DNA of 64,000 bases from Antedon bifida (Eukaryota > Echinodermata > Crinoidea > Comatulida > Antedonidae): positions 11,644,001 through 11,708,000 of the forward strand of contig OY727099.1 in assembly GCA_963402885.1 (NCBI GenBank), given 5' to 3'. How positions within the stretch are numbered: position 1 is the first letter of the stretch; each line of letters begins with the position of its first letter. The translations under genes and the position numbers were made by a program. The notes below the pieces were generated by a model. The model was not told the DNA's origin. It did not search any database and worked only from the letters and a program-made list of their open reading frames with translations. This document shows positions 12,101-57,240 of the stretch, piece after piece.

Positions 12101-15100
12101 AATGGAATGCATTTGAAGTTTGGTAATTTCACAATTTTCGCAATCACGTCTTGCACCCCCTGAAGTCTGCATATATTAGTAGCTTCAATGAGGATACCAA
12201 TGTCTGCCGGTTTGAGAAGTCCAGGACCCTTAAGTAAACTAATCAGATCATAGGGTATATTTTCATCCTCTATTTTTTTCAAAGTAATGGTTGTATCACG
12301 ATTCGTGAACTCGCTAAGTAACACTTTCAGCATGTCAATGTTTCCATGTTTCTTCCACCAGTCTGATACCTCTACAAGCAGTTCATTGTAATCATCCTCT
12401 TTCAATTCTAATAATAGTAATAATATGATTCATTAATGATAATAATAATATCATTACGTGTTAAAGAATCAAAACTGTACCATATAATAATAATTTATTG
12501 ATTTTATATTTATTCTGCTATTCTATTAAGGAATTTGACCTTATTGATTAAAAAGTATTTTAACAAAATAGGGAAAAGTGACAACTGACTAAACTACTAC
12601 CAAAAGTTAAGACTGAAAGAGCAAAGAAATTCACCACCAACTTCTGAGTTTTCAACCCATAGTAGGAAATCTTTATTTATTTTTTCGGTGCTTACTTTTC
12701 CATTTCAATTGTTTTACATTTTTTGATGTTTTTTTTATGTAATAAAATATTTCTGACTGCCGAGGATTGTAATTTCGGCGTGAATCAGTGGAGCGGGGTG
12801 TGAAAGCTGAAGGAGAGCGAAATGTGTATGACCAAAAAACATGCGCATCATCCACAGTTCGTAACTCTTCTAAGAGAGAGTTTAAAGCCTTAGAATTCTC
12901 CAGTTTCACTGACGCCAGTGTTCGAGTGCGGATCTCAGTGCCATACCTTTGCTTAACATGTCTGTGAAGTTGGTTACTAGTTCCTAGTTCCTTATTCAAA
13001 TTCAATTAAAGGGACAGTCACAAATATATAAAAAAAAACAGATTTTAATACGTAATAACTGTCTAATTGAGTTGTTATTGCATCAACTTGTTGTTGCAAT
13101 ACGGCGAATAAGTAACTGGCTTTTACGAACGTTATAACACTTGACCTACTTAATTTTTTCAAAATATTTTGGTATGAATCGATCACCCTTGACCTACTCT
13201 ACCATTTGCCACCCCAGTTCCGCGAACTTTTTTGCGTCTACGCCCTCTACGGCGAATAAGTAACTGGCTTTTACAAACGTTATAACACTTGACCTACTTA
13301 ATTTTTTCAAAATATTTTGGTATGAATCGATCACCCTTGACCTACTCTACCATTTGCCACCCCAGTTCCGCGAACTTTTTTGCGTCTACGCCCTCTACGG
13401 CGAATAAGTAACTGGCTTTTACGAACGTTATAACACTTGATCTACTTAATTTTTTCAAAATATTTTGGTATGGATCGATCACACTTAACCTACTTTATCA
13501 TTTGCCACCCCAGTTCCGCGAACTTTTTTGCGTCTACGCCCTCTACGGCGAATAAGAACTGGCTTTACGAACGTTATAACACTTGACCTACTTAATTTTT
13601 TCAAAATATTTTGGTATGGATCGATGACCCTTGACCTACTCTACCATTTTCCACCCTAGTTCCGCGAACTTTTTTGCATCTACGCCCTCTACGGCGAATA
13701 AGTAACTGGCTTCACGAACGTTATAACACTTGACCTACTTAATTTTTTCCAAATATTTTGGTATGGATCGATGACCCTTGACCTACTTTACCATTTGCCA
13801 CCCCAGTTCCGCGAACTTTCTTGCATCTACGCCCTCTACGGCGAATAAGTAACTGGCTTTACGAACGTTATAACACTTGACCTACTTAATTTTTTCAAAA
13901 TATTTTGGTATGGATCGATCACCCTTGACCTACTTTACCATTTGCCACCCCAGTTCCACGAACTTTTTTGCATCTACGCCCTCTACGGCGAATAAGTAAC
14001 TGGCTTTTACCAACGTTATAACACTTGACCTACTTAATTTTTAAAAAATATTTTGGTATGGATCGATGACCCTTGACCTACTCTACCATTTTCCACCCTA
14101 GTTCCGCGAACTTTTTTGCATCTACGCCCTCTACGGCGAATAAGTAACTGGCTTTACGAACGTTATAACACTTGACCTACTTAATTTTTTCAAAATATTT
14201 TGGTATGGATCGATGACCCTTGACCTACTTTACCATTTGGCACCCCAGTTCCGCGAACTTTTTTGCATCTACGCCCTCTACGGCGAATAAGTAACTGGCT
14301 TTACGAACGTTATAACACTTGACCTACTTAATTTTTTCAAAATATTTTGGTATGGATCAATCACCCTTGACCTACTTTACCATTTGCCACCCCAGTTCCG
14401 CAAAATTGTTTACATCTACGCCCTCTACGGCGAATAAGTAACTGGCTTTACGAACGTTATAACACTTGACCTACTTAATATTTTCAAAATATTTTGGTAT
14501 CGATCGATCACCCTTGACCTACTTTACCATTTGCCACCCCAGTTCCGCAATTGTTTTTGCATCTACGCCCTCTACGGCTAATAAGTAACTGGCTTTACGA
14601 ACGTTATAACACTTGACCTACTTAATTTTTAAAAAATATTTTGGTGTGGATCGATCACCCTTGATCTACTTCACCATTTGCCACCCCAGTTCCGCGAACT
14701 TTTTTGCATCTACGCCCTCTACGGTGAATAAGTAACTGGCTTTACGAACGTTATAAAACAAAATGCATGCAGTAGTCAGCTAGAAATATTAGTGTACACC
14801 TGAGTATGCAGGTAAATGAAATTAGTTATACTATTATACTATTTCTTTCGTAAAACCAATAAAAAGATGGATTTCACTAAACAAGAATTAGCTACAAAGT
14901 TTTTACTGTACTATTTTAATTAAACACAGAACTTAGTACATTGTTTTCTTCATTTTAAATTTGTATTTTTAATGCCGGTAATAAAACTAAAAAAAAACAA
15001 TAGTTCATTCTCTACCAATACATTTGAATCTGTCTCTGTTACTGGTTACAGACTTTGATTGTTTCCAGTAAACATGTAATATTAGAAATGAACCATGATG

Positions 15101-22291: not shown

Positions 22292-23080
22292 CTAGAATTT
22301 AATTCGTCACTTTGACGAATTATAGGTGATCATTTTTATAATTTTATTGACATTAATATTAATAAACATGCACGTATGTTAACATACAATCGGAAAATGT
22401 TGATGTATGCCATCCTATTATACGCTTATAGTGCTGAGTTTTGCCTATTTTTATGCCATATACATTATGTACAGTATATACTGTACATCTATATACAGTG
22501 TAGCATTGGTAAAATTACGGACACACATCATGATCTAACTTTTTGGTACTGATGACAATATCAAAATAAACTTGTGAATAACAATATCGAAAGATAATGA
22601 ATTGAGCAATAAAATATAACAATTGGAAGAAAATTTGGCACGTAGAAGCGCGGTGCGCGCTCTTTAAAATTTGTATAACTTTGACGAAAGAGATGAAAAA
22701 ACTACTCTTTAACTTCAACTGGCCATATGAAACGTCACAACATTCGATAGGCTTAATTTTTATATGAATTCATATCTACATTTCACCAGCTCTCACAATA
22801 AGTTATAAACATCAAGGTCAACTTTAATTCAGAAGAGCTGTAAGGTATTCAAATATACGTTGTAGGTGAAATTACGTAACCACCGTTATTCAAATTTTAA
22901 GACATGATGACACCATCAAAATGAAAATATTGGCAACTCATAAGTAACATAATTGGTTGAGGTAGAATATATTAAAAATGTAAAAAAAATCGATCACAGA
23001 TAAGCGAGTTGCGCTCTGTTGAATATGGTGGTATATGACAAAAGGGGAAAAAACCATATTTTAAAAATTCATGTGGCCAA
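22292..23080 (-). mobile_element. Helitron-like unit 2, left part
   Basis: A more diverged copy, split by the 3.2-kb transposon at 23081-26307. It resumes at 26308, in the GGCCA..TGATGACGTC segment of the unit. Confidence 0.7.
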
Positions 23081-26000
23081 CCCTTTGCAAAAAAGCCGTA
23101 TACGAACGTATACGATTTACATACGTTTCGTATATGTTTCGTATAGGAAGTCCATTTCGTATACGAAACGTATACGTCAATTCGGAAGTTCCTGCCCGCA
23201 TAATAAACATATACGAACCGTATACGATCATTTATAAACAATTTCCTAATTATACGATCCGTATACGATCCGTATACGATACGAGTACGCGTGTATACAA
23301 ACTGCATCATATTACCAAGCGAAAAGGGACTGTCCCTCTTTTTACAAGACGACGATAGCATACGTTTACGCATGGTTTACGATGGCAGGAGCATCTTGAC
23401 TTCAATAATTAATGTACAATTTGTTTGTTTTTTTTAGTCGGTATATGTACATTAAATTCCCTATGATGATTTAGTTCATAGTTTTCGCTAATGAAAAAAA
23501 TTGGTGCTGTATTTTACAAGACGTTATTTTTCTATCAAGCATAAAAACCCACCCAGGCTGTTCCGTCTTGTTTATCCCCTCTGCTATTTCTTTACCTTTG
23601 GTACGTTCCATTAATAAGTGAATCATACAAAATGTGCTGTTATTAATTTGAAAGTGCTTTAATTAATATTAATGTATTTGGAAATAAATAAATAAATATT
23701 AAATTTGACCCGCAGTATATTAAATTTAAAACGACTAAGTAAAATCCATAAATTACGATGTAATAAAAATGTAGAATACATGTGGCTCCCTATTATATAT
23801 ATGGAATGATCCAAATAAATTCGCCCAAAACGTGCCTGGTGTGTGTGCTGCATTGCATGCATCACATGGATGGATCAGATTTCATTCATTTTCAATCATC
23901 ATTGTTGTTATCAAACGGAATTTTTTTTGCTACGGGTTTTTAACTTTTTTTAACTCGCCATAAAAAAATAAAAAATGGGATGTAGGCCTAGTTACAGTAG
24001 GCCAAAGTAGATAGTAAATTCGATGACTTCTAGCTAGCTAGGCTATAGGCATATTGTAATTGTATAGATCGAACATGCAGTAACTAGCTACTGTAGCAGC
24101 TCTAGTAAACTAAGAGTAACTAGGCCTGGGAAAAATACGCCAAGGAAAAGAGTCTGTGGTACACTCATTGTGAAAATAAGCTAGCTAGCTTTCCCCCATA
24201 TATTAGATTTGGTTATATTGGTTGTATTATTATAATAACCTACTCTAGCTAGTAGAAAATCAACAACGGTGAAATAAAAATATGACGCATTATGGATATC
24301 ATCGTTGCAGAGTTAGGGGGTGCCAACAAAACATTCAACAGCCAAAAATACAAAAGAAGAAGCTCCGACGCTAGCATTTTACTAATTTAGGCATCAGAAC
24401 TAATTGCTGTAAATTTACTAGAGTTGTCACTGATAAATACAATTTAACATATCCTACATGTAACTTAAAAAATCCAAATGATAAATTATACGCAAACGTA
24501 GTAAAACCAGGTAAATGTTAAATACTTATTTTACATCTCCCTGGTAAAAAGGTACCCCACGCCCCCATTTTTATGCCTCCATCATTGACGGGCCAAGCGG
24601 TATTTAATTATATTTTTATTTATTTAATTCGTAAATTAAAAAAAAAAAATCGTTAATATAAATAAGTGAACCTTTGTAACTTTTTGTTGCATATGCGCGG
24701 GCGCGAGATACTATTTAATAAGATAGGCTTTATTCATATCATATGTGTTGGAGTGGTAAACAACTATGAGGCCTAGTTGCGAGGATACCGCCTCGTAACT
24801 ACGTATTAACGTATAGACGTTGAATATGTGTTACTTAAAAAAGGATGTAATAAATTGTGTACAATATTAGTAGCTAATAGTTTTTTTGTGCCCCCTCTGT
24901 ACACACGGCTGCTGGATATTTGTTTATCATTTTAATTAGTGTAGTACGAGTCTAACTCCAAATAAAGAGAATTCAAAGTTTTGATTTTTTTCAAGAATCT
25001 GATAAACATGACTCATCTTTTTACATAATATACAGCATCAGCATGTACAATCTAATTTAATTGTCACACAATTGAATTAACAAAGGACAAGGATTTAAAA
25101 TAAACTGTTACAAATAAACAATTATGAATGAAATAGTTGGGGGTATTGTTGGGTCCATGGGAAATCAACAATGTTTAGTAGACTTATTTAATTTGTTATT
25201 TACAGTTGAGGGTGGTTATTTTTTAAAGACATGTTTTATGATTTCTTAATCACCAAGCAGAAATACCGCTGAGATAAATGAAAGCAATTCAATCTGTTCG
25301 CTTAACCGGGAAAAAATTGAAATTCGATATAATTGTATTTACTATAACCACTAATTTTGTTTTTAATTTTTTTTAATTCAACTTCATATTCAAAATCCGA
25401 TTGTATTCATCGTTAAATAATTATTATTATATAATATTAATGTACATATCAACACATCCCACTTCTGTTTTGGATCATGGTTTTCCTCTTCGGCATTATT
25501 TGCCAAATTATTGTTACTCCATCTCCATGCTATACTACAACACATGTCGCGGAATAATATCGCTTAACATAAACGATGTAATTTGACCACCCAAAGCTCG
25601 CACGTGGTGTGACGAATTGAGAAGATCGAACGACGCGACGTACCCGATGATATGCATGATTGGCCACCAGAGAGCCGAGTCGACCACGAGTTGCAACTGT
25701 AGGCAACCGAGCGACGCTCGGTCGTCGTCGGCGGCTGAACTTACTGACCTCTGTCTATTTTATAAAGGAAAACTGCAAACAACATCGTGAAAATGGCCCC
25801 TTGTCTTGTCCTTTCTAGGCCTACCTAATAGTAGTATACCTGTTTAGCGTATTTTATTGACTTGCGAAAAACGTTGTTTGAATTCTATCGGTAGCCTAGG
25901 CTATCTAATAAATAGAAATAAATATGGTCTAATTATGTCCTAGCTCCTATATTACTAATACTACTACTAGACTAGTGGCTGGTGCTAGCTAGGCCAGAGA

Positions 26001-26307
26001 GCCAGCCTACGTACGTATTTGTTGTAATGACAATTTAAATGTTTTATTTAGCTCTATTTTACTCATTACTACTATTATAATTTATAAAATGGCCTAGTTT
26101 GTTCGTATATGATTCGTATACGTCCCGTATACGATATTCTTATCATCAATAAACAACGTATACGTTACGTATGCTAAACGTATACGACGCCAACTCTTTG
26201 TGGAGCAACAGAGTGGAAATAATGTAAACAGTGAAATCGTATACGATCCGTATACGTCGTATACGTTTTCAGCGTATACGGATCGTATACGGCTTTTTTG
26301 CAAAGGG
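23081..26307. mobile_element. 3,227-bp DNA transposon with CGTATACG subterminal arrays, inside unit 2
   Basis: Terminal inverted repeats begin CCCTTTGCAAAAAAGCC and are identical for about 25 bp. Each end then carries 200-300 bp crowded with CGTATACG-type palindromes. Comparison with intact units gives a clean insertion with an apparent AA duplication. No long frame is present, so it is non-autonomous or gutted. Subterminal palindrome arrays are typical transposase-binding regions (as in CACTA or hAT families). With only a 2-bp duplication I do not assign a superfamily. The interior (23400-26090) is AT-rich except for a GC-richer patch at 25595-25750. Confidence 0.85.
25595..25810. other. GC-richer patch inside the CGTATACG transposon
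   Basis: This patch differs in base composition from the AT-rich interior and has many CGA/ACG words. It could be a captured host promoter or exon or the element's own promoter. I see no conserved protein. Confidence 0.3.
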
Positions 26308-27068
26308 AAATGATGACGTCATACCATTTTTTACGTCTAATGTGTATATGCATTTATATCTACAACTCATTGGCTTCCATAATAAGTTAAAAAAATTGGG
26401 GGTCATCTTTCATTCTGAAGAGTTCTATTCATTTTAAAGAGGCCTTATTTTTTACCATTTTTAGCACTTTTGTACAATTAATGTGCGCATTTTGTCATTT
26501 TTAACGTGCTCGTATAGCACTATTTTAAGTCTGAATGGACTCAAATTTAGTGAATGTACTAAGGAAGATGAGTAGAATGGAATTTGTACAAAAAATTGTT
26601 ATTTTTTACGCTCTCTATATACGCACGCGCAAAAACGTGTTTTTGCGCAGTAATTTTTTGAAACACGCAAATGGCCTAATTCATGCTCTAAATTGATCAA
26701 AACTTAATTTTGAGCTTTTTAAATTTTTAATGCGCGATTTCACGCGCATGACCCTACGTGTGCGTGCGTTTTTATTTTCTATTATTTTTCCCCTTGACCT
26801 GAAGTTTACGTGTAGTAAATTTCATTAATATGTGATAATTAATTATGGAGATATGATTGATAATGTGATTTTACAAAATGGCGTATAAATGACGTCATGG
26901 ATGAGTGATCACGCTGAAAAGCTTATTAGGACTAAGTTAAAGTATTTGAAAGACATTGTGAAATTTTGGTATTCATTGGCATTAAACTTTTTGAGATATT
27001 TGTTACACAAAATCTGTACAGAAAGAAATTGGGAAGTAAAATTGTTTTTGTATAAAAACAATTTTACA
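26308..27068 (-). mobile_element. Helitron-like unit 2, right part, with its own terminal palindrome
   Basis: It ends in a 32-bp perfect palindrome at 27036-27067 (arm GTAAAATTGTTTTT, four-base loop) in the place where other units have the GGTGATCATTT hairpin. The terminal hairpin position is kept while its sequence is different. Confidence 0.65.
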
Positions 27069-33314: not shown

Positions 33315-34837
33315 CTAGAATTTAATTCGTCACTTTGACGAATTATAGGTGATCATTTTTATCATTTTACTGAAATTAATTTTTTTTAAACATGCACGTA
33401 CGTTAACATACGATTGGAAAATGTTGATGTATGTCATCCTATTATATGCTTATAGTGCTGAGTTGTGCCTATATGCCATATACAATATGTACAGTATATA
33501 CAGTACTGTATATCTATATACAGTGTAGCATAGGTGAAATTACGGGACACACATGTTCTAATTTTTTGGCATGATGACGTTATCAAACTAAACTTTAAGA
33601 TGACAATTTCGAAAGATAATTAATTGAGCAAAAAAATATAAGATTTGGAAAAAAATTTGGCACGTAGAAGGGCTGTGCGCGCTCTTTGAATTGTGTATAA
33701 CTTTGACGAAAATTATGAAAAAACTACTTTTTCACTTCAACTGGCCATATGTTAACGTCACAACATCCGATAGGCTTAATTTTTATATGAATTAATATCT
33801 ACATTTCATCAGCTTTCATAATAAATTATAATCATCAAGGTAACCTTCAATTCTGAAGAGCTGTAAGATATTCAAATTTACTGCGAAGGTGAAATTACAC
33901 GGCCTACGTTATTCAAGTTTGTACGCGTGATGACGTCATTAAAATAAAAATAGTGTCAACTCTTGATAAAGATAATTAATTAAGCAAGCACATACTGAAA
34001 TTTGTGCGAAATTCGAGCACACACAACCAAGATGCGCTCTGTTGAATGTGATAATCTACACAAAAAGATAACAAATCCTAATTTTTAAATTCAAGTGGCC
34101 ATTTGATGACGTCAAAACATTTTGTACGTAAAATGTGTACATGAATTCATATCTACAACTCAATGGCTTCCAGAATAAGTTAAAAAAATTGGGGGTCATC
34201 TTGCATTCTGAAGAATTATTTTCATTTTAAAAAAGACCTATTTTTCACCATTTTCAGAACTTTTGTAAAATTAATATGCGCATTTTGTCATTTTTAACGT
34301 GCTCGTATAGCGTTATTTTAAGTCGGAACTGACTCAAATTTGGTGAATGTACTAAGGATGGTGAGTAGAATGAGATTTGTAAAAAAAATTCATATTTTTT
34401 ACGCTTTTTAAGTATCGCGCGCGCAAAAACGCATTTTTGCGCAGTAATTTTTTGAAACACGCAAATGGCCTAATTCATGCTCTAAATTGATCAAAACTTA
34501 ATTTTGAGCGTTTTAAATTTTTAACGCGCGATATCACGCGCATGAACCTACGTGCGCGTGCGTTTTTATTTGCTAATATTTTTACCCTTGACCTGAAGTT
34601 TACGTGTAGTGAATTTCATTAATATGTGATAATGAATTATGGAGATATGATTGATAATGTGATTTCGCAAAATGGCGTATAAATGTCGTCACGGATGAGT
34701 GATCACGCTGGAAAGCTTATTAGGATTAAGTTATATTATTTGAAAGATATTCTGAAATTTTGGTAATCATTGACATTAAACTTTTTGAGATAATTGTTAC
34801 ACAAAATAGTGTACAGAAACAATAAAAAGAAAAAAAA
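33315..34837 (-). mobile_element. Helitron-like unit 7
   Basis: Standard subfamily, 1523 bp. The right end lacks the hairpin and abuts the CTAG of a different subfamily (unit 8). Confidence 0.7.
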
Positions 34838-36467
34838 CTAGACATGTAACTCGTCACTTTGACGAGTTTGGTTTTCCGCCGCGCAAGTGGTGCAACATGA
34901 ACGTGTAACGACGTACCTTACCGTACCGAACATTAAGGGGATAGGTTGAGGACAAAAGGAAGTGTCCACGTTGGCATTATGACCTGAACTGAAGAATATG
35001 ATATGTTTTTATTGCTGAATTCTATTATTTTGATTCATATATAGTATACACAGTATGATCTGTATCCATATCACATACAGTGTAGAATAGGTGAAATTAC
35101 GGGACCCGCTATTTATTGCAATTTTTAACATGTTGACGGTTTTAAAATGAAACGCGAAGGTAGCATTTCCGAAAAGAAATTATCTCAGCAACAACGTATT
35201 AGCGTGTAGAAGAAATTTGAATACGTGAAATATTGATGCGCGCTCTTTTAAATGCAATGAATTATGACGCAAAAGATGAAAATACGACTTTTTTCATTTA
35301 ACTGGCCATATGATGACGTCACAACATCCGATTGGCAAAATTTTCACATGATTTCGTATCTAAAATCCAATAGCTTCCAGAAAACGTTTTAATCGTGATT
35401 ATCAAATTTTATTCTTACGAGCTATAACAGATTAAAATTTACTGTAAAGATGAAATTAATGCCACACGTAATTTAAATTTTTAGGAATGATGACGTCAAA
35501 AAAATTAAAATATTTATAATTCATGCGAAAGACAGTTGATTGACCTAGACAATATCAAAATTTGGGTGAAAATGGAAAACGGATAAGTGGAGATGCGCTC
35601 TATTAAATGTGATGAGCTATGACGAAAGATACAAAAATCCTAAATTTTATATTAGCGTGGCAATACGATGACGTCACAATGTCCGGTTAGCCATATTAAT
35701 ATATGATCCGATATCTACAACTCATTAACTTCCAGAAAATGTCATCCACAAAAAGTTGACCGTCTAGTTTAGAAATTACGACTGTTTAAAAAAAGGCATA
35801 TTTTAAACGAATTTTTTAACCTTTTCATAAAAAACGCGCGCAAATTGTCCAATTCGACGTGCTCGTATGACGTATCTTTAAGTCGAAATTGTTTAAAATT
35901 TGGTAAAATTACTAGAAAAGGCTGGAAAAACATAAATCACGCGAAAAAAATACGTTTTCAATGCTACGTGCGCACCGCACACGTAAAAATGTGCGCACGC
36001 GTGGGAATTTTTGACATGCTTAAAACGACATGAAACGCGTAGAAAGTTGATTATAAATTAATTTTGCGCATTTTGAAATTTTAAATTAGCGTGCGCGCGT
36101 AACTTTGTGTAAAACACGCAATTTTTTTTCCACAGAAAGTTAGCGCATAATATAAATTAAACTTTTGCAAAGTTTCAAGTTGAAATGTTATTTGGTTGTC
36201 GAGCTATGTTAAATACGAGAAAATCGTTAAATCGCGCGTACGTCACGTTGCGCAATTGTAAGCATCATGAAAAGCTTCGCTTGACGACGTTACATAAATG
36301 TCAAAATGTCAACATAGTTAAAAAAATGTTATGTTTGCAAGTTTTAGAGAAAAGCGTTACACAAAAATCATACAGAAAGAAAGAAGATGAAAAAAAAGAT
36401 GATGATGATGATGATGATTTCGTACAATCACAAGAGGTTTTCCTGCAACTTCGTTGCGGAAAACCAA
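34838..36467 (-). mobile_element. Helitron-like unit 8, second subfamily (GGTTTTCC ends)
   Basis: The same layout with different sequence. The left end is CTAGACATGTA plus a hairpin of arms ACTCGTCA/TGACGAGT, followed by TTGGTTTTCCGC. The right end is a hairpin of GGTTTTCC and GCGGAAAACC closing with AA. The body aligns in order with standard units (CCATATGATGACGTCACAAC, GACGTGCTCGTATGACG, CGCGCGTAACTT) but is strongly diverged. A (GAT)n stretch is at about 36399-36417. Confidence 0.7.
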
Positions 36468-36579
36468 TAAAGATTTCATACAATAACAATAGGTGATCAT
36501 TTAGCATTCTAAATGATCACCTAATAAAGATTTTATACAATAACAATAGGTGATCATTTTATTCTAAATGATCACCTAA
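36468..36579. repeat. Two solo Helitron-like terminal hairpins in tandem
   Basis: Two copies of the ~55-bp standard right end (TAAAGATTTxATACAATAAC plus the GGTGATCATTT hairpin, with different loops) sit between unit 8's own end and unit 9. Termini without a body suggest end-skipping or repeated end capture. Confidence 0.75.
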
Positions 36580-38086
36580 CTAGAATTTAATTCGTCACTT
36601 TGACGAATTATAGGTGATCATTTTTATCATTTTACTGAAATTAATTTTTTTTAAACATGCACGTACGTTAACATACGATCGGAAGATGTATGCCATCCTA
36701 TTATATGCTTATAGTGCTGAGTTGTGCCTATATGCCATATACAATATGTACAGTATATACTGTATATACAGTGTAGCATAGGTGAAATTACGGGACACAC
36801 ATGTTCTAATTTTTTGGCATGATGACGTTATCAAACTAAACTTTAAGATGACAATTTCGAAAGATAATTAATTGAACAAAAAAATATAAGATTTGGAAAA
36901 AAATTTGGCACGTAGAAGCGCTGTGCGCGCTCTTTGAATTGTGTATAACTTTGACGAAAAATATGAAAAAAACTACTTTTTCACTTCAACTGGCCATATG
37001 TTAACGTCACAACATCCGATAGGCTTAATTTTTATATGAATTAATATCTACATTTCATCAGCTTTCATAATAAATTATAATCATCAAGGTAACCTTCAAT
37101 TCTGAAGAGCTGCAAGATATTCAAATTTACTGCGAAAGTGAAATTACACGGCCTACGTTATTCAAGTTTTTACGCGTGATGACGTCATTAAAATGAAGAT
37201 AGTGTCAACTCATGATAAAGATAATTAATTAGGAAAGCACATACTGAAAGTTGTGCGAAATTCGAGCACACATAACCAAGATGCGCTCTGTTGAATGTGA
37301 TAATCTACACAAAAAGATAACAAATCCTAATTTTTAAATTCAAGTGGCCATTTGATGACGTTAAAAAAATTTTGTACGTAAAATGTGTACATGAATTCAT
37401 ATCTACAACTCAATGGCTTCCAGAATAAGTTAAAAAAATCGGGGGTCATCTTGCATTCTGAAGAATTATTTTCATTTTAAAAAAGACCTATTTTTCACCA
37501 TTTTCAGAACTTTTGTAAAATTAATGTGCGCATTTTGTCATTTTTAACGTGCTCGTATAGCGTTATTTTAAGTCGGAACTGACTAAAATTTGGTGAATGT
37601 ACTAAGGATGGTGAGTAGAATGAGATTTGTAAAAAAAATTCATATTTTTTACGCTTTTTAAGTATCGCGCGCGCAAAAACGCATTTTTGCGCAGTAATTT
37701 TTTGAAACACGCAAATGGCCTAATTCATGCTCTAAATTGATCAAAACTTAATTTTGAGCGTTTTAAATTTTTAACGCGCGATATCACGCGCATGAACCTA
37801 CGTGCGCGTGCGTTTTTATTTGCTAATATTTTACCCTTGATCTGAAGTTTACGTGTAGTGAATTTCATTAATATGTGATAATGAATTATGGAGATATGAT
37901 TGATAATGTGATTTCGCAAAATGGCGTATAAATGTCGTCATGGATGAGTGATCACGCTGGAAAGCTTATTAGGATTAAGTTATATTATTTGAAAGATATT
38001 CTGAAATTTTTGTAATCATTGACATTAAACTTTTTGAGATAATTGTTACACAAAATAGTGTACAGAAACAATAAAAAGAAAAAAAA
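36580..38086 (-). mobile_element. Helitron-like unit 9
   Basis: Standard subfamily, 1507 bp, near-identical to units 4-7, with a short deletion near 36683. It has no terminal hairpin on the right. Confidence 0.7.
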
Positions 38087-39736
38087 CTAGAATTTAATTC
38101 GTCACTTTGACGAATTATAGGTGATCATTTTTATCATTTTACTGAAATTAATTTTTTTTAAACATGCACGTACGTTAACATACGATCGGAAAATGTTGAT
38201 GTATGCCATCCTATTATATGCTTATAGTGCTGAGTTGTGCCTATATGCCATATACAATATGTACAGTATATACTGTATATCTATATACAGTGTAGCATAG
38301 GTGAAATTACGGGACACACATGTTCTAATTTTTTGGCATGATGACGTTATCAAACTAAACTTTAAGATGACAATTTCGAAAGATAATTAATTGAGCAAAA
38401 AAATATAAGGTTTTTAAAAAAAATTTGGCACGTAGAAGCGCTGTGCGCGCACTTTGAATTGTGTATAACTTTGACGAAAAATATGAAAAAACTACTTTTT
38501 CACTTCAACTGGCCATATGTTAACGTCACAACATCCGATAGGCTTAATTTTTATATGAATTAATATCTACATTTCATCAGCTTTCATAATAAATTATAAT
38601 CATCAAGGTAACCTTCAATTCTGAAGAGCTGTAAGATATTCAAATTTACTGCGAAGGTGAAATTACACGGCCTACGTTATTCAAGTTTTTACGCGTGATG
38701 ACGTCATTAAAATGAAGATAGTGTCAACTTATGATAAAGATAATTAATTAAGCAAGCACATACTGAAAGTTGTGCGAAATTCGAGAACACATAACCAAGA
38801 TGCGCTCTGTTGAATGTGATAATCTACACAAAAAGATAACAAATCCTAATTTTTAAATTCAAGTGGCCATTTGATGACGTCAAAACATTTTGTACGTAAA
38901 ATGTGTACATGAATTCATATCTACAACTCAATGGCTTCCAGAATAAGTTAAAAAAATCGGGGGTCATCTTGCATTCTGAAGAATTATTTTCATTTTAAAA
39001 AAGACCTATTTTTCACCATTTTCAGAACTTTTGTAAAATTAATGTGCACATTTTGTCATTTTTAACGTGCTCGTATAGCGTTATTTTAAGTCGGAACTGA
39101 CTCAAGTTTGGTGAATGTACTAAGGATGGTGAGTAGAATGAGATTTGTAAAAAAAATTCATATTTTTTACGCTTTTTAAGTATCGCGCGCGCAAAAACGC
39201 ATTTTTGCGCAGTAATTTTTTGAAACACGCAAATGGCCTAATTCATGCTCTAAATTGATCAAAACTTAATTTTGAGCGTTTTAAATTTTTAACGCGCGAT
39301 ATCACGCGCATGAACCTACGTGCGCGTGCGTTTTTATTTGCTAATATTTTTACCTTTGATCTGAAGTTTACGTGTAGTGAATTTCATTAATATGTGATAA
39401 TGAATTATGGAGATATGATTGATAATGTGATTTCGCAAAATGGCGTATAAATGTCGTCATGGATGAGTGATTACGCTGGAAAGCTTATTAGGATTAAGTT
39501 ATATTATTTGAAAGATATTCTGAAATTTTTGTAATCATTGACATTAAACTTTTTGAGATAATTGTTACACAAAATAGTGTACAGAAACAATAAAAAGAAA
39601 AAAAAAAAGAAAAAAAATAATAATAAAGATTTTATACAATAACAATAGGTGATCATTTTATTCTAAATGATCACCTAATAATAAAGATTTTATACAATAA
39701 CAATAGGTGATCATTTTATTCTAAATGATCACCTAA
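38087..39736 (-). mobile_element. Helitron-like unit 10, with doubled terminal hairpin
   Basis: A standard unit of 1650 bp. The right end carries the ~55-bp hairpin terminus twice in tandem (about 39623-39678 and 39681-39736). Confidence 0.7.
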
Positions 39737-41257
39737 CTAGAATTTAATTCGTCACTTTGACGAATTATAGGTGATCATTTTTATCATTTTACTGAAATTA
39801 ATTTTTTTTGAACATGCACGTACGTTAACATACGATCGGAAAATGTTGATGTATGCCATCCTGTTATATGCTTATAGTGCTAAGTTGTGCCTATATGCCA
39901 TATACAATATGTACAGTATATACTATATACTATACTACTGTGTAGCATAGGTGAAATTACGGGACACACATGTTCTAATTTTTTGGCATGATGACGTTAT
40001 CAAACTAAACTTTAAGATGACAATTTCGAAAGATAATTAATTGAGCAAAAAAATATAAGATTTGGAAAAAAATTTGGCACGTAGAAGCGCTGTGCGCGCT
40101 CTTTGAATTGTGTATAACTTTGACGAAAAATATGAAAAAAACTACTTTTTCACTTCAACTGGCCATATGTTAACGTCACAACATCCGATAGGCTTAATTT
40201 TTATATGAATTAATATCTACATTTCATCAGCTTTCATAATAAATTATAATCATCAAGGTAACCTTCAATTCTGAAGAGCTGTAAGATATTCAAATTTATT
40301 GCGAAGGTGAAATTACACGGCCTACGTTATTCAAGTTTTTACGCGTGATGACGTCATTAAAATGAAGATAGTGTCAACTCATGATAAAGATAATTAATTA
40401 AGCAAGCACATACTGAAAGTTGTGCGAAATTTGAGCACACATAACCAAGATGCGCTCTGTTGAATGTGATAATCTACACAAAAAGATAACAAATCCTAAT
40501 TTTTAAATTCAAGTGGCCATTTGATGACGTCAAAACATTTTGTACGTAAAATGTGTACATGAATTCATATCTACAACTCAATGGCTTCCAGAATAAGTTA
40601 AAAAAATCGGGGGTCATCTTGCATTCTGAAGAATTATTTTCATTTTAAAAAAGACCTATTTTTCACCATTTTCAGAACTTTTGTAAAATTAATGTGCGCA
40701 TTTTGTCATTTTTAACGTGCTCGTATAGCATTATTTTAAGTCGGAACTGACTCAAATTTGGTGAATGTACTAAGGATGGTGAGTAGAATGAGATTTGTAA
40801 CAAAAATTCATATTTTTTACGCTTTTTAAGTATCGCGCGCGCAAAAACGCATTTTTGCGCAGTAATTTTTTGAAACACGCAAATGGCCTAATTCATGCTC
40901 TAAATTGATCAAAACTTAATTTTGAGCGTTTTAAATTTTTAACGCGCGATATCACGCGCATGAACCTACGTGTGCGTGCGTTTTTATTTGCTAATATTTT
41001 ACCCTTGATCTGAAGTTTACGTGTAGTGAATTTCATTAATATGTGATAATGAATTATGGAGATATGATTGATAATGTGATTTCGCAAAATGGCGTATAAA
41101 TGTCGTCACGGATGAGTGATCACGCTGGAAAGCTTATTAGGATTAAGTTATATTATTTGAAAGATATTCTGAAATTTTTGTAATCATTGACATTAAACTT
41201 TTTGAGATAATTGTTACACAAAATAGTGTACAGAAACAATAAAAAGAAAAAAAATAA
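39737..41257 (-). mobile_element. Helitron-like unit 11
   Basis: A standard unit of 1521 bp, without a terminal hairpin on the right. It abuts unit 12 of a third subfamily. Confidence 0.7.
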
Positions 41258-42564
41258 CTAGAACTTAAACTCGTCACTTGAGGACGAGTTTGGTTATCCG
41301 CCCGCAACAAACGTATCTTGCGCATTCAAGTACTTTTCAATCATGACTTTTCCAAAAAGTAGCCTATTCGATAATAAAACTCCCTTTCAGTGTAATAAGC
41401 AAACAAATCTTTTTATTTAATTATTTACCCGTGACGGGATTCGATCCCGGTACCTCTGATACCAAAGTCGGTTGCACTACACATCGAGCCATATGAGCAG
41501 CTGCTGAAGAAAATCCGAACAACAATTACTCGTTCATTCGGTATGTCGTGAACCCCTCGATGCAAGTTGATTATTACCTATCAAACTAAATCATAATTTT
41601 TACTAGGATGAAATCTTCACACATTTGAAACAGTAACATATTATGAAAGTTCATACTTTCAAGTTTTATATATTAAAATGTGAAGAAAAAAGATAAACGT
41701 TATGTTTATTGTTTTGCTCTTTGAAAATGTTAGTGTTTGTTTGATGATCAAAATTTCAAAAATTATATTTAATATGCATATAATGTAGCCATCAAACACG
41801 TTTTAGCATTCAAGACTATAATAAATCAGACCTATGATTCATACACTGCAAGAAAATAAAATAAAAAATGGGGGTAACCTTGCATTCTGATGAACTGTAT
41901 CGTTTTTAAAAGTAGACATATTTTGCAACATTTTCACAATTATTAGACATTTTACGTGCGCAACCAGTCATGTTTAACGTGCTCGTGGAACGCCATTTCC
42001 AGTTGAATAGTGAATAAAATAACGCAAAATTGTTAACTGAAGTTTGAAAAACACAATCTATGCAAAATAAAGGCTCATACGCGTTCCCTGCGCCGTGCGC
42101 GCGTGAAAATGTGCGCATCTGGTGGGAATTTTTTAAACGCTTAAAATGACCTGAAACGTGCGCTAATTTAATCAGAAAATGATTTGAAGCATTTTAAAAT
42201 TTCAAACTCCGTTTACGCGCGCACTTTCTAATGTTACAAAATTCGGTAGCGATAAAACAGTTTACAATTGATGTGAAGCAACCGTGGCTGAAAATTCGTT
42301 AAAAAATATTTATTTGTTTCAAAGTTATGATCAATTTAAGAATTTCATAAATTCGCGCGTAACTTACGCTACGTGGCTCTGACAGCGTTCAAAAGCTTCG
42401 CAGTACAACTTCAGTTAAATGTCTAAATGTTTAGAAAGTCACAACATGTTATGTTAACACGTTGCAGAGAAACAGCGTGCACAAAATCTGAGAAAGAAAG
42501 AAGAATAATAAAAAAAAGTAACACTACAATTCCAAGGGCTTATCCGCTTGAGGCGGATAACCAA
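41258..42564 (-). mobile_element. Helitron-like unit 12, third subfamily (GGTTATCC ends)
   Basis: The left end is CTAGAACTTAA plus a hairpin of arms ACTCGTC/GACGAGT, followed by TTGGTTATCCGCC. The right end is a hairpin of TTATCCGC and GCGGATAACC closing with AA. The right half of the body (from about 41860) aligns with other units (AACGTGCTCGT, GCGCGTGAAAATGTGCGC). The left half is replaced by unrelated sequence including a tRNA-like stretch. Confidence 0.65.
41427..41493 (-). repeat. tRNA-like sequence, probable tRNA-derived SINE fragment
   Basis: The minus strand has ATGGCTCGATGTGTAGTGCA (an A-box-like D arm) and GGTACC, then CGGGATCGAATCCCG, a perfect T stem-loop (B box). The expected U33 is G and the acceptor stem does not close, so this is not a working tRNA. 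The A-rich 3' side fits a truncated tRNA-derived SINE. Confidence 0.5.
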
Positions 42565-42674
42565 TAAAGATTTTATACAATAACAATAGGTGATCATTTT
42601 ATTCTAAATGATCACCTAATAAAGATTTTATACAATAACAATAGGTGATCATTTTATTCTAAATGATCACCTAA
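42565..42674. repeat. Two more solo Helitron-like terminal hairpins
   Basis: Two tandem copies of the standard ~55-bp terminus follow unit 12's own GCGGATAACC end and close the array. Confidence 0.75.
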
Positions 42675-42904
42675 AAATACATTCAACTAAAACCAACTAC
42701 AGGCATTTATGTTAACAGATTAACTACACAATAAGCTATTATCAAATGTACAAAATGCTTCATCACAGAGCATTGAACAATCATAACATTTCTAAAATAC
42801 TATACTACTTAAATTAATACTTAAACTTGAAATAGTATACTAGTGTATCGTATAGCAACACATGAACATAATGCAGTATTGTTTATTGTAGGCATAAGCT
42901 ATGC

Positions 42905-48179: not shown

Positions 48180-48509
48180 TGAATGATGAAATTAATGATT
48201 CCATATATACTGTACTATTTTCTATGTCCATGACATTATCATTTGACAAGTTATCATCACTCCATTTGAAAAGATCATAGCAATATATTAGATTTATCAA
48301 CTTGAAACACCTGAAAGATCATTCCACCTCAGGTCAAGCATGCCAGGTTTTAATACAACTTTGTTTACTTCACATACCTCCAATAAGTCTCTTATAATAG
48401 TACATGAGAGATTACAATCAACCAAGTCAAGATGACGTAATTCTGGTAAGAATTGTAATAACCAAGCTAATTTGAATCCTTTAATTGCAGCTGTTGCAGT
48501 GAAGACCAC
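48180..48509 (-). pseudogene. Frame-disrupted extra LRR sequence after the NLR stop
   Basis: Past the stop, LRR coding continues in another frame (FKLAWLLQFLPELRHLDLVD, CEVNKVVLKPGMLDLRWNDL). It then continues in a third frame (CFKLINLIYCYDLFKWSDDN), ending at FENISI before a stop near 48,180. At least two frame changes separate these from the main frame. The alignment breaks inside the fifth unit, where a normal LDLSGLDLAAIK segment is replaced. This is either a decayed C-terminal repeat or the remains of a longer ancestral LRR array. Confidence 0.75.
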
Positions 48510-51500
48510 AAATATCTAAACGTTTCCATGTCAAAATACAACCAATCTGCAAGACTTTCTAGATTACCAACTGACAAACTATAATCACTCCATTTGAATG
48601 AATCCATTAGATTTATCAACGTGAAAAGTGAAACACCATCTATATCTGAAAGATCATTTTCCTCTAGTCTAAGCATACCAGGTTTCAATACCACTTTGTT
48701 TATTTCACATTCCCCCAATAAGTCTCTAATAATAGTACCTGAGAGATTACAATCAACCAAGTCAAGTTGATGTAATTCTGGTGAGAATTGTAATAACCAA
48801 GCTAATTTGGATACATTAATTGCAACTAAATCAAGACCACTTAAATCTAAACTGTTCCATGTCAACATACTACCATGTTCATGGCAGGCATCTGCAAGAC
48901 TTTCTAGATTATCAACTGACAAGTTATAATCACTCCATTTGAAAATTTTAACATCAGAAGGCATGGATCCATAAATTATCCAAGCCAGAGGAGGCATGGA
49001 TCTAGAATCACCGGAATATATATCACCATTAATTAGATTTACCAACTTGGAAAGTGAAACACCATCTATTGCTGAAAGATCATTTCCTTTTAGTCTATAC
49101 ATACCAGGTTTCAATACCACTTTGTTTACTTCACATTCCTCCAATAAGTCTCTTATAATAGTACCTGAGAGATTACAATCAACCAAGTCAAGATGACATA
49201 ATTCTGGTGAGAATTGTAATAACCAAGCTAATTTGGATCCTTTAATTGCAGCTAAATCAAGACCACTTAAATCTAAACTGTTCCATGCCAACATACTACC
49301 ATGTTCATGGCAGGCATCTGCAAGACTTTCTAGATTATCAACTGAAAATCTAAAATCACTCCACTTGAAACGTTTATCAGGTATATGTATGAAGACATAC
49401 TTAACGGAAGAGTAAAACATTAGATTTACCAACTTGGAAAGTGAAACACCATCTATATCTGAAAGATCATTTCCCTTTAGATTAAGCATACCAGGTTTTA
49501 ATACCACATCGTTTACTTCACATTCCTTCAATAAGTCTCTTATAATAGTACCTGAGAGATTACAATCAACCAAGTCAAGTTGATGTAATTCTGGTGAGAA
49601 TTGTAATAACCAAGCTAATTTGGATACATTAATTGCAGCTAAACGAAGACCACTTAAATTGAAATGTATCCATGTCAACATACTACCATGTTCATGGCAG
49701 GCATCTGCAAGACTTTCTAAATTATCAACTGACAAGCTATAATCAGTCCATTTGAAAATTTTATCATGAGAATGCACGAATCCATAAAATCTCCTAGCCA
49801 GAAAAGACATGGATCTAGAAACACCGGAATATAAATCACCATTAATTAGATTTACCAACTTGGAAAGTGAAACACCATCTATTGCTGAAAGATCATTTCC
49901 TTTTAGTCTAAGCATACCAGGTTTCAATACCACTTTGTTTACTTCACATTCATCCAATAAGTCTCTTATAATAGTACCTGAGAGATTACAATCAACCAAG
50001 TCAAGATGACGTAATTCTGGTGAGAATTGTAATAAACAAGCTAATTTGGATCCTTTAATTGCAGCTAAATCAAGACCACTTAAATCTAAATGTTTCCATG
50101 TCAACATACTAGCATGTTCATGGCAGGCATCTGCAAGACTTTCTAGATTACTAACTGACAAGCTATAATCAGTCCATTTGAAAATATAGCAGTTCAATAG
50201 ATTTACTAACTTTGAAAGTGAAACACCATCTATTGCTGAAAGATCATTTCCCTTTAGACAAAGCTGTATGTCGTTCGATAGCAACGTGGCTTGCTTGTTA
50301 AATAATGCATTGAAAACTGCACCAGATAATTGACAATCACTCAAATTTATGTCATAAGTTACCTTCATCATAATTGTCAGTGAACCTACAGAAATATTAC
50401 TTAAATCATTATCACTGAGGTCAATCTTTTCTAATTCTAAGGATATGTCATTTGCTTGATCAATAACATGATTCAATACATCAATACTACCAGATTTGAA
50501 ATTCAGATGCAGTTGTTTACAAGAAAATTGCAACAAATGAATCAAGAATTTACGATTTGTTGACTTCATAACATTAATATACCTAAAACTGTATTTAAAT
50601 TGAAAATTTTCCATTACAGCTGAAAGGGTATCAATCTCACTGTCTTCTAACAATGAATGCAATTCAAACAACCTGCCATCATCATCATCTATATAATCAT
50701 CACTCATTAGTCCATGTATAATGATATAGATATGAACTAGCATAGAACAAAATGGTTTTGTTGGTTTAGTGTCTTTAGTTTCTATGACCTTTAATAGTGT
50801 ATCTACAATACACTTTGAATTTTTCTTAAACCTTTTAAAACAAATGTTCATAAGTTGTACTAAATGTTTATTTTCAATTGTTTCATCATAATGAAGAACA
50901 TTTCTCATCTCACACACAGCATCAGTTGATATATTTGGTAAATCACCTATTACATGTATTTCATGTTCTGGCTTCACATAGCTGAAATACTTTACTAGTG
51001 AATAGTAGTTTGGAGCTGTTTTCACCTTTAACCAATGTTTCATAATTTTACCAGCTTCTTTCCCTAGGAATTCTATAGTGAATATGATTGTCATGTGTAG
51101 ATATGGATTTAACAGCATCTTTTTACACTCTTCTTCATTCATCTCATTTGACAAACATGCATTAGCAAGGTAAAACCCAGCTAAAGCCTCTGAAACTAGC
51201 TTGTGTGTGGGTGCAAAAATTGCCTTTCTATCTGTTTTAATATTAGATGCTTTTTTGTAAACAAATCCAAGTTTAAGTGCTAATTCTACTGTATCCTTGT
51301 CAACCATACCATCAAACTCATTTTTATAGATATAGAGTTTGTTTTCCTTTAAGCCTCCAAGCATACATTGACCTAGTGCAAGTATAGCCTTTTTATATGG
51401 ATCTTTAATATCCCCAAATTCTGCAATTTTACTTCCCTGTACCTTTGTATGTTGATTCAAAGTGCAACAAATTATTTCTTTAAACAAATCTGATATGGTA

Positions 51501-52449
51501 ATTGACACAGGATTTAAATTGAAATGCAAAAATGATGTGGATTTTTCAAACATGCTACAAATTATAAGTAACAACAATGGAGAAGAACACAATTTAAGTA
51601 TATTTGTGTATTCGATTACATCATCAGAATCTGAATACTCTTCATCTGAAAGCTCCGAGTCTGAGTAATCAATGGAGGTATACCTCCATGTGTAATCCAT
51701 GTGTGAGTCAAGGTTTAATTTTGTAATTAACTGCTTTCCTAATTCAGAATTGTCATTAAAGTATTTCTCAATATAAAGCTTCTTCATTTTTGCACTAAAT
51801 CCATTGACCTGAACATGTACATCACAATTTTCAACAAATGTTGTAATATTTTCAGGTCGAGATGTTATTAATGTGATATTATTGTAACCTGATCTAAAAT
51901 ATAACAGGTTTAGTCGATTTTCAGAACCTTTCTTTAACTCATCTAATCCATCTAATAGGATCACTATTTCTTGCCCATGTTGAATCATGAATTGTTTAAT
52001 TATTCTTACAGAATCTTCTTTGGTTTTTAAATTCATAAGAACAGCAAATCTGTCAAGGTCAAGTTGATCAACAATACTATCTATGATTGTCTTTCCTACA
52101 TCTATGTCTCTGATATTTATAAAAAACAATACTTTGTCAGAAAATGCATCATCCTTACCCTTAGCCCAGTTATAAGAAATGTATCTGAGAAGAGTTGTCT
52201 TTCCCATCCCTCCTTTACCTGTAATTAGAACTTTACATGACCTGTTAGATTTTATAATCTTCAATACTTCCTCCATACTTGTAGGTTTAGCCTCTTGTTC
52301 CCTCGTTGCCTGGTCAACCTGTTTTTGTTTTGTAGATTGAAGTAATGTGAGATCTGTGAATACATCTGCAATATCTACTTTGTGTTCTTCCCTGAAAACT
52401 GCTGTTCCCATTAGGTTCATGTCTTTGTATAAATCTTCTTCAGAAACAT
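48467..52449 (-). CDS. NACHT-LRR exon
   Basis: A single long exon starting VSEEDLYKDMNLMG. Numbered from the Met at 52420, Walker A GKGGMGKTT spans about 68-76, Walker B ILLDGLDE about 154-161, and sensor-like LITSRPENI about 185-193. Winged-helix and NACHT-associated regions follow (FAPTHKLVSEALAGFYLANA). LRRs start near residue 620 (LEKIDLSDNDLSNISVGSL). From about 50,300 down come four full copies and one decayed copy of a 130-140-residue double-LRR unit carrying NDLSxIDGVSLSKLVNL, LSVDNLESLADACHEHGSML, LDLVDCNLSGTIIRDLL and VVLKPGM. The acidic run SDSELSDEEYSDSDD near 255-270 is an unusual insertion. The frame ends within the last repeat. Confidence 0.92.
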
Positions 52450-56110: not shown

Positions 56111-56177
56111 GTTAGCCTTAACCTCCTCTACTTCTTCCGGTCAAAGTTCAATAACATTTTATGCATTTACACCCTCT

Positions 56178-57240
56178 ACGGCGAATAAGTAACTAGCTTT
56201 TACGAACGTTATAATACTTGACCTACTTCCTTTTTTCAAAATATTTTGGTATGGATCGATCACCCTTGACCTACTCTACCATTTGCCACCCCAGTTCCGC
56301 GAACTTTTTTGCGTCTACGCCCTCTACGGCGAATAAGTAACTGGCTTTACGAACGTTATAACACTTGACCTACTTAATTTTTTCAAAATATTTTGGTATG
56401 GATCGATCACCCTTTACCTACTCTACCATTTGCTACCCCAGTTCCGCGAACTTTTTTGCGTCTACGCCCTCTACGGCGAATAAGTAACTGGCTTTACAAA
56501 CGTTATAACACCTGACCTACTTAATTTTTTCAAAATGTTTTGGTATGAATCGATCACCCTTGACCTACTTTACCATTTGCCACCCCAGTTCCGCGAACTT
56601 TTTGGCATCTACGCCCTCTACGACGAATAAGTAACTGGCTTTACGAACGTTATAACACTTGACCTACTTAATTTTTTCAAAATATTTTGGTATAGATCGA
56701 TCACCCTTGACCTTTTCTATCATTTTCCACCCCAGTTCCGCAAACTTTTTTGCGTCTACGCCCTCAACGGCGAATAAGTAACTGGCTTTTACGAACGTTA
56801 TAACACTTGACCTATATATTTTTTTCAAAATATTTTGGTATGAATCGATCACCCTTGACCTACTTTACCATTTGCCACCCCAGTTCCGCGAACTTTTTTG
56901 CATCTACGCCCTCTACGGCGAATAAGTAACTGGCTTTACGAACGTTATAACACTTGACCTACTTAATTTTTTCAAAATATTTTGGTATGAATCGATCACC
57001 CTTTACCTACTCTACCATTTGCCACCCCAGTTCCGCGTACTTTTTTGCGTCTACGCCTTCTACGGCGAATAAGTAACTGGCTTTTACGAACGTTATAACA
57101 CTTGACCTACTTAATTTTTTCAAATTAATTTGGTATGAATCGATCACCCTTGACCTACTTTACCATTTGCCGCACCAGTTCCGCGATTTTTTTAGCATTC
57201 CTCTACGGCGAATAAGTAACTGGCTTTACGAATGTTTTTG
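56178..57240. repeat. 147-bp satellite array 2 (about 7 units), upstream of the NLR gene
   Basis: Units start at 56178, 56326, 56473, 56620, 56767, 56915, 57062 and 57205 with the same consensus as 13101-14755. Terminal units are degenerate. Here it lies 5' of the gene, not in an intron, so the two arrays were not copied as part of one simple gene duplication. Confidence 0.95.

Follow-up and report, generated by a model that had tools for sequence, protein, structure and literature searches.

Matched end motifs of nested Helentron derivatives in the genome of Antedon bifida and their association with Rep lineages

The minus strand of a 64,000-nucleotide stretch of the crinoid Antedon bifida (assembly GCA_963402885.1, contig OY727099.1, positions 11,644,001 to 11,708,000 of the forward strand; hereafter the window) carries an array of HINEs, short non-coding derivatives of Helentrons (Helitron2 group). 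The host genome comprises 315.6 Mb in 27 contigs. In these units, an end motif of 10 to 12 bp, the asymmetric terminal inverted repeat (ATIR), is present at three places, namely in the outer and the inner arm of a 5' hairpin and as an inverted copy close to the 3' end, and units of different families carry different motifs at all three. The reading favoured here, with a probability of about 0.7, is that the end motifs stay matched because transposition needs them, and that the main end types follow the lineages of the Rep protein of the autonomous elements. The observations behind it are the anatomy of the units, the matching of their ends in a genomic sample, the link between end type and Rep clade in a few copies, and the nesting of units of one type in those of another.

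Twelve 3' ends were located by script in the window, in agreement with the unit numbers of the first-pass annotation, which had been made from the letters alone. Read on the minus strand, units with their own 5' end start with one or more hairpins built from the ATIR, followed by a T-rich tract, and all finish with the inverted motif, a second hairpin and CTAG. The window has 28 occurrences of the standard motif (GGTGATCATTT), where shuffling predicts 0.06. Measured units are 1305 to 1628 bp long and follow each other head to tail at about 1.5 to 1.65 kb; the unit at 22292-27068 is longer because of an insertion in its body. Unit 10 (38087-39676; 1590 bp) served as the standard reference, as it possesses its own hairpin. 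The standard unit reads, 5' to 3', AGGTGATCATTT..AAATGATCACCT at its 5' end and AAATGATCACC-TAT-AATTCGTCA-AAG-TGACGAATT-AAATTCTAG at its 3' end; in unit 10, the 3' ATIR lies at 38120-38130, the 3' hairpin (AATTCGTCA/TGACGAATT) at 38096-38116, and two stacked standard 5' hairpins, its own and one more, at 39618-39736. Some standard bodies have no own hairpin and border directly on the CTAG of the following unit, as is the case for unit 9 (36580-38086), which adjoins the CTAG of unit 10.

Unit 8 (34838-36465; 1628 bp) and unit 12 (41258-42562; 1305 bp) contain GGTTTTCCGC and GGTTATCCGC, respectively, instead of the standard motif at the outer 5' arm, the inner 5' arm and the 3' copy. Unit 8 reads GGTTTTCCGC..GGAAAACC at the 5' end and GCGGAAAACC-A-AACTCGTCA-AAG-TGACGAGTT-ACATGTCTAG at the 3' end, with the 5' hairpin at 36436-36465 (outer arm, or 5' ATIR, 36456-36465; inner arm from 36436), the 3' ATIR at 34870-34879 (reading GGTTTTCCGC on the plus strand), the 3' hairpin (AACTCGTCA/TGACGAGTT) at 34848-34868 and the terminal CTAG at 34838-34841. 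Similarly, unit 12 reads GGTTATCCGC..GCGGATAA(G)CC and GCGGATAACC-AAACTCGTC-CTCAAGT-GACGAGTTT-AAGTTCTAG; its 5' hairpin occupies 42537-42562 (outer arm 42553-42562), its 3' ATIR 41292-41301 and its 3' hairpin of the CTCAAG kind (AAACTCGTC/GACGAGTTT) 41267-41291. The sequence of the 3' hairpin differs between the unit types, with its pairing retained. Direct reading thus bears out three statements of the first-pass annotation, namely that units 8 and 12 have other end motifs than the standard units, that the 3' copy, the 5' end and the hairpin arms change together, and that the 3' hairpin changes with its pairing kept. A first correction is that the inner 5' arm of unit 12 has one additional G, forming a bulge. 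Compared with the standard body, units 8 and 12 are about 62 to 74% alike in the stretches that align, and each is located inside a standard unit; they are therefore separate families, not point variants of the standard unit.

Throughout the genome, end types were named after their motifs, as S (GGTGATCATTT), G (GGTTATCCGC), A (AGTTATCCGC), T (GGTTTTCCGC) and V (GGTTATATGC). The search patterns were exact, so that hairpins with longer loops were missed (for instance the 14-base loop in A-type copies), and for palindromic patterns strand-hits count one place twice. The 5' hairpin pattern RGTTWTCCGC..GGAWAACY, in which each arm could adopt both variants, gave 4591 strand-hits, 4549 of which had matched arms (2356 G, 1979 A and 214 T, the last being exact matches to the 5' hairpin of unit 8); all other arm combinations accounted for at most 42 strand-hits (0.9%). 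Hairpins sharing one motif have differing loops. A generic pattern of a 3' hairpin followed by GGT matched 3321 times, versus 32 times for the reversed pattern. Among the 100 of these 3321 matches listed, a few recurring types (S, G with several hairpins, and V) were found besides scattered decayed singles, the motif GGTGATACGC being represented by one case. Counted separately, 1419 3' ends were of type A and 211 of type T, the latter being exact copies of the 3' end motif of unit 8. The V motif was predicted from 3' ends and then retrieved as a hairpin with both arms at 230 places. In place of the three subfamilies of the first-pass annotation, the genome carries more than three end types, with five populated ones. 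A dense cluster of Helentron ends of several types was seen at about 15.15 to 15.46 Mb of contig C1, among the matches listed.

Agreement between the two ends was examined on C1 below 15.38 Mb by assigning to each 3' end among the matches listed the closest exact 5' hairpin located 900 to 1900 bp away in the correct direction. The input consisted of 84 of the 100 listed generic 3' ends plus the listed T and A 3' ends of this region; decayed motifs were assigned to the nearest type, and V hairpins were left out of the set. Both ends were of the same type in 65 of 68 pairs, compared with a mean of 22.3 and a maximum of 37 in 10,000 permutations. Restricting the comparison to 3' ends more than 4 kb away from any other listed one left 35 pairs, of which 34 were of the same type. 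By position, four of the eight V 3' ends among the matches listed have a V hairpin 705 to 1560 bp away. In the pairs on this part of C1, the independent variation of the two ends that would have refuted the first-pass annotation was not found, and the three misfits have an explanation. L075, considered as a G/A chimera, turned out to be a G element that has an imperfect G hairpin of its own and is nested in an A element, and L074, considered as a V/A chimera, is an A element inside a V element; both candidates were rejected. L077 has a stack of A, A and G hairpins, the outermost member of which agrees with its A-type 3' end.

Such agreement could also be a founder effect, arising from the amplification of a small number of master copies that differed in their ends, in which case the covariation would be silent on any present constraint. 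Indeed, T copies are 95 to 99% alike, and eight of the nine standard bodies in the window are 98.5 to 100% alike over their first 400 bp. Plain descent leaves unexplained, however, why the founder types themselves are matched at three places, and it does not account for a minimal pair of types G and T on a background that is 9% diverged. This pair consists of the G copy L068 and four T copies (L071 to L073 and unit 8), which are 90.8 to 92.0% identical to it and have the loop AACGAAGTTGCA in common. Their ATIRs differ at one position, which is changed in all three places; under a simple independent-site model (145 differences in 1625 aligned sites), the chance of this is about 6e-5. Unit 8 itself is 95.6 to 99.4% identical to the three T copies elsewhere and 90.9% identical to the G-type copy. 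Descent as the whole explanation is thus considered unlikely.

Units 8 and 12 each lie between standard 5' hairpins and a standard body. In the case of unit 8, two standard hairpins at 36466-36579, attributed to unit 7, are separated by it from the body and 3' end of that unit (33315-34837); in the case of unit 12, two standard hairpins at 42563-42675, attributed to unit 11, are separated from the body and 3' end at 39737-41257. A T is found on both flanks of units 8 and 12 and of nested copies elsewhere, as read from occupied sites. The mixed array is explained by the later insertion of units 8 and 12 into the T-rich tract that follows a standard 5' hairpin. Genome-wide, 85 RGTTWTCCGC motifs directly follow the 10-base tail of a standard hairpin (reversed-pattern control, 0); these places are spread on C1 and C7 to C16, and 26 of the 85 motifs, as counted from the listing, are of type T. 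Ten nested T places were examined (seven single elements and three short arrays), all of which have a standard hairpin in front; on the far side, eight have a standard body and two have other Helentron hairpins. The head-to-tail arrangement of the units in the window would also be expected from a satellite, enlarged by unequal crossing-over and tandem duplication, without transposition. This origin is barely credible and was rejected, given the dispersed ends on several contigs (C1, C7 and C8 among the T 5' and 3' matches and V matches listed), the defined boundaries, the autonomous partners, and the nested heterotypic units.

As to these partners, a Helitron Rep profile matched the genome 39 times, with 38 matches above the curated cut-off and 21 in open frames of 2000 to 3182 amino acids. 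When 30 Rep loci were compared, 20 copies fell into clade 1 (88 to 100% identical), six into clade 2, and four were distant; Reps of clade 2 are 70 to 78% identical to those of clade 1. In the Rep tree, clade 1d, the group of L023, L019, L011, L012, L017 and L018, and clade 2 have a support of 0.99 to 1.0, and the placement of L006 and L007 is unsupported (0.059). The clade-1 protein comprises OTU, DUF6570, Rep, PIF1 helicase and C-terminal endonuclease domains, and the clade-2 protein, as far as it was read, DUF6570, Rep, PIF1 and endonuclease domains. E-values for Helitron_like_N (PF14214) and PIF1 were 1.8e-37 and 1.8e-30 in clade 1 (L008, L040) and 1.1e-32 and 3.1e-29 in clade 2 (L030, L078); those for the apurinic-like endonuclease (PF03372) were 2.6e-12 and 1.7e-10, respectively, in one copy of each clade. 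A candidate for the RPA gene inside L030 consists of one exon (REPA_OB_2, 9.1e-6, 26 bits, below the cut-off of 27). In the clade-1 protein of L035, matches to an OTU protease and to Herpes_teg_N precede the Rep domain. The Reps of L005, L029 and L034, about 21 to 27% identical to Helentron Reps, perhaps belong to canonical Helitrons.

The S type goes with clade 2. The similarity between the elements L030 and L032 reaches, at the two borders, to within 5 bp of a standard 5' hairpin and a standard CTAG, respectively, which lie about 21 kb apart (about 4 kb of the interior of L030 and 7 kb of that of L032 being unread), and their gene has the same orientation as the element. Over 1411 aligned bp at the 5' end, unit 10 and L030 are 95.5% identical, and over the last 113 bp 94.7%, indicating that the standard unit is the HINE of L030. 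Standard units in both orientations at L027 are probably separate insertions. Where the sides of clade-1 copies were read, the gene is oriented opposite to the neighbouring ends. L020 (clade 1d) has hairpins of the unit 12 type on its 5' side, where unit 12 is 85.7 to 90% identical to it, and the 592 bp at the 3' end of unit 12 are 97.8% identical to its 3' side. A-type ends are present on both sides of L012 (clade 1c) and L019, and G-type ends on both sides of L015 (clade 1b). L007 was rejected as an A-type autonomous element and left out of the counts, its 3' end belonging to a neighbouring HINE. Unit 8 is 85% alike to L012 on the 5' side, and its last 60 bp are 95 to 97% alike to those of L012 and L023, with an ATIR that differs at one or two positions; by this resemblance, the unit 8 family most likely belongs to the 1c/1e lineage. 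The surroundings of 11 of the 30 Rep loci were read, and at none of these was an autonomous copy with GGTTTTCCGC or GGTTATATGC ends seen. Pairs of ATIR and hairpin were likewise not detected within 1.5 kb on each side of the first Rep loci or in the initial 24 kb read near two autonomous copies; for one autonomous copy (copy A), the 28.5 kb read did not reveal the 3' end.

In the copies read, S ends and RGTTATCCGC ends are clearly split along the Rep clades, and there are at least two end-Rep pairings, S with clade 2 and the unit 12 type with clade 1d. The expectation of the first-pass annotation that end types could be assigned to autonomous elements thus holds for S, on two clade-2 elements, and for the unit 12 type, around L020; for unit 8, it extends to the resemblance of the last 60 bp. 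Likewise, its several transposase specificities can be retained as two well-separated pairings, with Reps 70 to 78% identical. One transposase for each end type is unsupported, as A and G ends (and T ends by resemblance) go with Reps that are 88 to 100% identical, i.e. within one Rep clade; finer end-Rep specificities are unproven.

In the mechanism envisaged for the favoured reading, a Rep-helicase would recognise the ends, act at the 5' hairpin, and unwind and replicate the strand; replication would stop at the 3' hairpin beside the matching motif, and the element DNA would enter between T and T. The three copies of the motif would stay matched because one transposition event must use them together. 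Elements with unmatched outer ends would not be propagated, so that the surviving types differ at all three places. Alternatively, the matching may be purely a matter of nucleic acid, the 5' and 3' ATIRs pairing with each other to open the hairpin and end replication, with any Rep serving any matched ends. Compensatory changes have been published together with this ATIR-pairing explanation (PMC3627910, in the part consulted), and the A, G and T motifs are found with last 60 bp of the 3' end that are 95 to 97% alike, as though changes of the motif were freely tolerated. Against this stands the fact that the end type follows the Rep clade in the copies read (S in clade 2, RGTTATCCGC in clade 1), and that the 100 of 3321 3'-end matches listed form a few repeated motifs, not a spread. 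This tracking of the Rep clade favours a share for the protein, although the data do not tell protein recognition from end-to-end pairing; pairing as the sole cause is possible but is not the expected outcome. As end-to-end base pairing would produce the same pattern, the first-pass statement that matched change implies selection by a transposase was too strong; the matching itself is real, with a partial exception in three units with a deviating (K-type) hairpin.

These K-type units are among several observations that weigh against a general need for matched ends. Of 26 standard body starts read, 14 have a standard hairpin, four abut CTAG without a hairpin, three abut the 3' end of another type, two are cut off, and three have an unrelated 5' hairpin; the two of these last three that were read to the far end have a standard 3' end. 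The K hairpins, located in the window at 27068 (the unit at 22292-27068) and twice beside L030 (L064, 3785-5335 and from 5336), each lie directly behind a standard CTAG and read TGTAAAATTGTTTTT in the window and TGAGAAATTGTTTTT beside L030, without a match to the 3' end. They may be internal units, the own 5' end of which is not used as a terminus. In L077, an element body that leads to an A-type 3' end has a G hairpin next to it. Further, for 73 of 141 3' ends no exact 5' hairpin lay at the required distance, which places them outside the pairing test, many of them because exact patterns miss longer loops. Matching is also inherited within families, so that 65 of 68 does not represent 65 independent events, the number of such events being that of the types, not that of the copies. 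Concerning the Reps, L023 (clade 1e) is preceded by A-type units on the 5' side, and its 3' end is of type G; no 5' end of its own was identified, a HINE terminating about 390 bp from its gene. Finally, about 9 kb of each clade-1 autonomous copy is unread and some ends taken as their own may be those of neighbours, which makes the ownership of these ends probable, not certain.

The K-type hairpins also bear on concerted repair, in which template switching would correct the hairpin arms after they have folded back on one another or on the 3' copy, giving joint change without selection. The presence of three motif copies, two of them in one hairpin, would suit such a process, and the arms of the K-type hairpin in the window are complementary to each other despite the mismatch with the 3' end. 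Concerted repair should, however, also bring K-type 5' hairpins into line with the 3' copy, and none of the three detected shows this; it also fits poorly with the differing loops of hairpins that share a motif. It is therefore regarded as quite improbable, and the need of transposition for matched ends is retained as the most likely explanation.

The units are new families of an already known kind, that of Helitron2 and Helentrons, and both their anatomy and their compensatory changes are in print. For Helitron2, the sections consulted of Bao and Jurka 2013 (PMC3627910) describe a 5' ATIR in a terminal hairpin and an inverted subterminal 3' ATIR just upstream of a 3' hairpin, report compensatory mutations between two related elements together with a proposed pairing of ATIRs at the end of replication, mention a RepHel in reverse orientation in some members, and leave it as an assumption how Rep finds both ends. 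The present units share this organisation and these changes; the difference is that five motif types are counted in one genome and set beside Rep clades. For Helentrons and HINEs (including DINE-1), the consulted part of PMC4067079 (2014) lists subterminal inverted repeats (subTIRs), a 3' stem-loop, a TT target, a Rep/Helicase/Endonuclease protein, an RPA gene and non-coding derivatives; subTIRs, stem-loop, protein and derivatives are found here as well, and the endonuclease marks Helentrons according to the excerpt of PMC5148889. In PMC4067079, as excerpted, a family is defined by an identical subTIR of at least 11 bp and a subfamily by 80% identity over the last 60 bp, rules that would cross in A. 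bifida, as A, G and T motifs occur on last 60 bp that are 95 to 97% alike. FoHeli of Fusarium oxysporum (PMC5148889, 2016, in part) has multiple 5' termini ascribed to self-insertion, nested elements and reversed open frames; stacked 5' ends, nesting and reversed genes are also present here. Its model predicts chimeras of the outer 5' end of one element and the 3' end of another. Among the misfits and nested copies examined here, no chimera of two end types could be confirmed, in keeping with a requirement for matching ends. Helraiser, a Helitron1 element (PDB 7lcc), shows Rep homology (E 1.7e-9), and the CTAG end fits the CTRR-3' of Helitron1 as given in the excerpt of PMC3627910, where Helitron1 has a 3' hairpin only, in contrast with the ATIR and 5' hairpin of the present units. 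In the portions consulted of the Helentron and Helitron literature on ATIRs, subTIRs and HLE2, no tally of end types within one genome, compared with Rep clades, was found; what is new here is the genome-wide covariation test.

A stricter version of the favoured reading would be a lock-and-key code within one genome, in which each Rep lineage uses private motifs of 10 to 12 bp and ignores foreign ends; from sequence comparison, this is tentative and rather doubtful. If true, nested elements would move without truncation at a heterotypic 3' end, and one-base changes of the motif (A/G, A/T) would represent specificity switches in progress. At three loci (one on C1 and two on C8), an element of the unit 8 type is located at the same spot of standard bodies that are 99.3 to 99.8% alike mutually (about 400 bp) and 90 to 94% alike to the standard units of the window. 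These may be one composite that moved whole under standard ends, past the foreign 3' end, or may reflect independent insertion into one standard subfamily. The genome thus offers end variants at one or two motif positions on close relatives, long Rep-helicase-endonuclease frames of two clades, and many nested heterotypic copies, which opens end specificity to counting and binding assays.

Some further features were noted. Unit 12 (about 41430-41500) and the element beside L020 (L047, about 3480-3580 in gene orientation) contain a stretch that, by eye, resembles a tRNA or a tRNA-derived SINE, reading TGGCTCGATG..GGGATCGAATCCCG in L047; ARAGORN, run on the window with the bacterial code, reported no tRNA. 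Elsewhere in the window, again judged by eye, an open frame of 692 amino acids (8798-10876) resembles a Penelope-type reverse transcriptase with a GIY-YIG end, and one of 1317 amino acids (48467-52420) appears NACHT-LRR-like. Two arrays, apparently of the same 147-bp satellite, are located 41 kb apart (13100-14756 and 56157-57236), and an open frame across an array of 138-bp units (62643-64000) runs off the end of the window.

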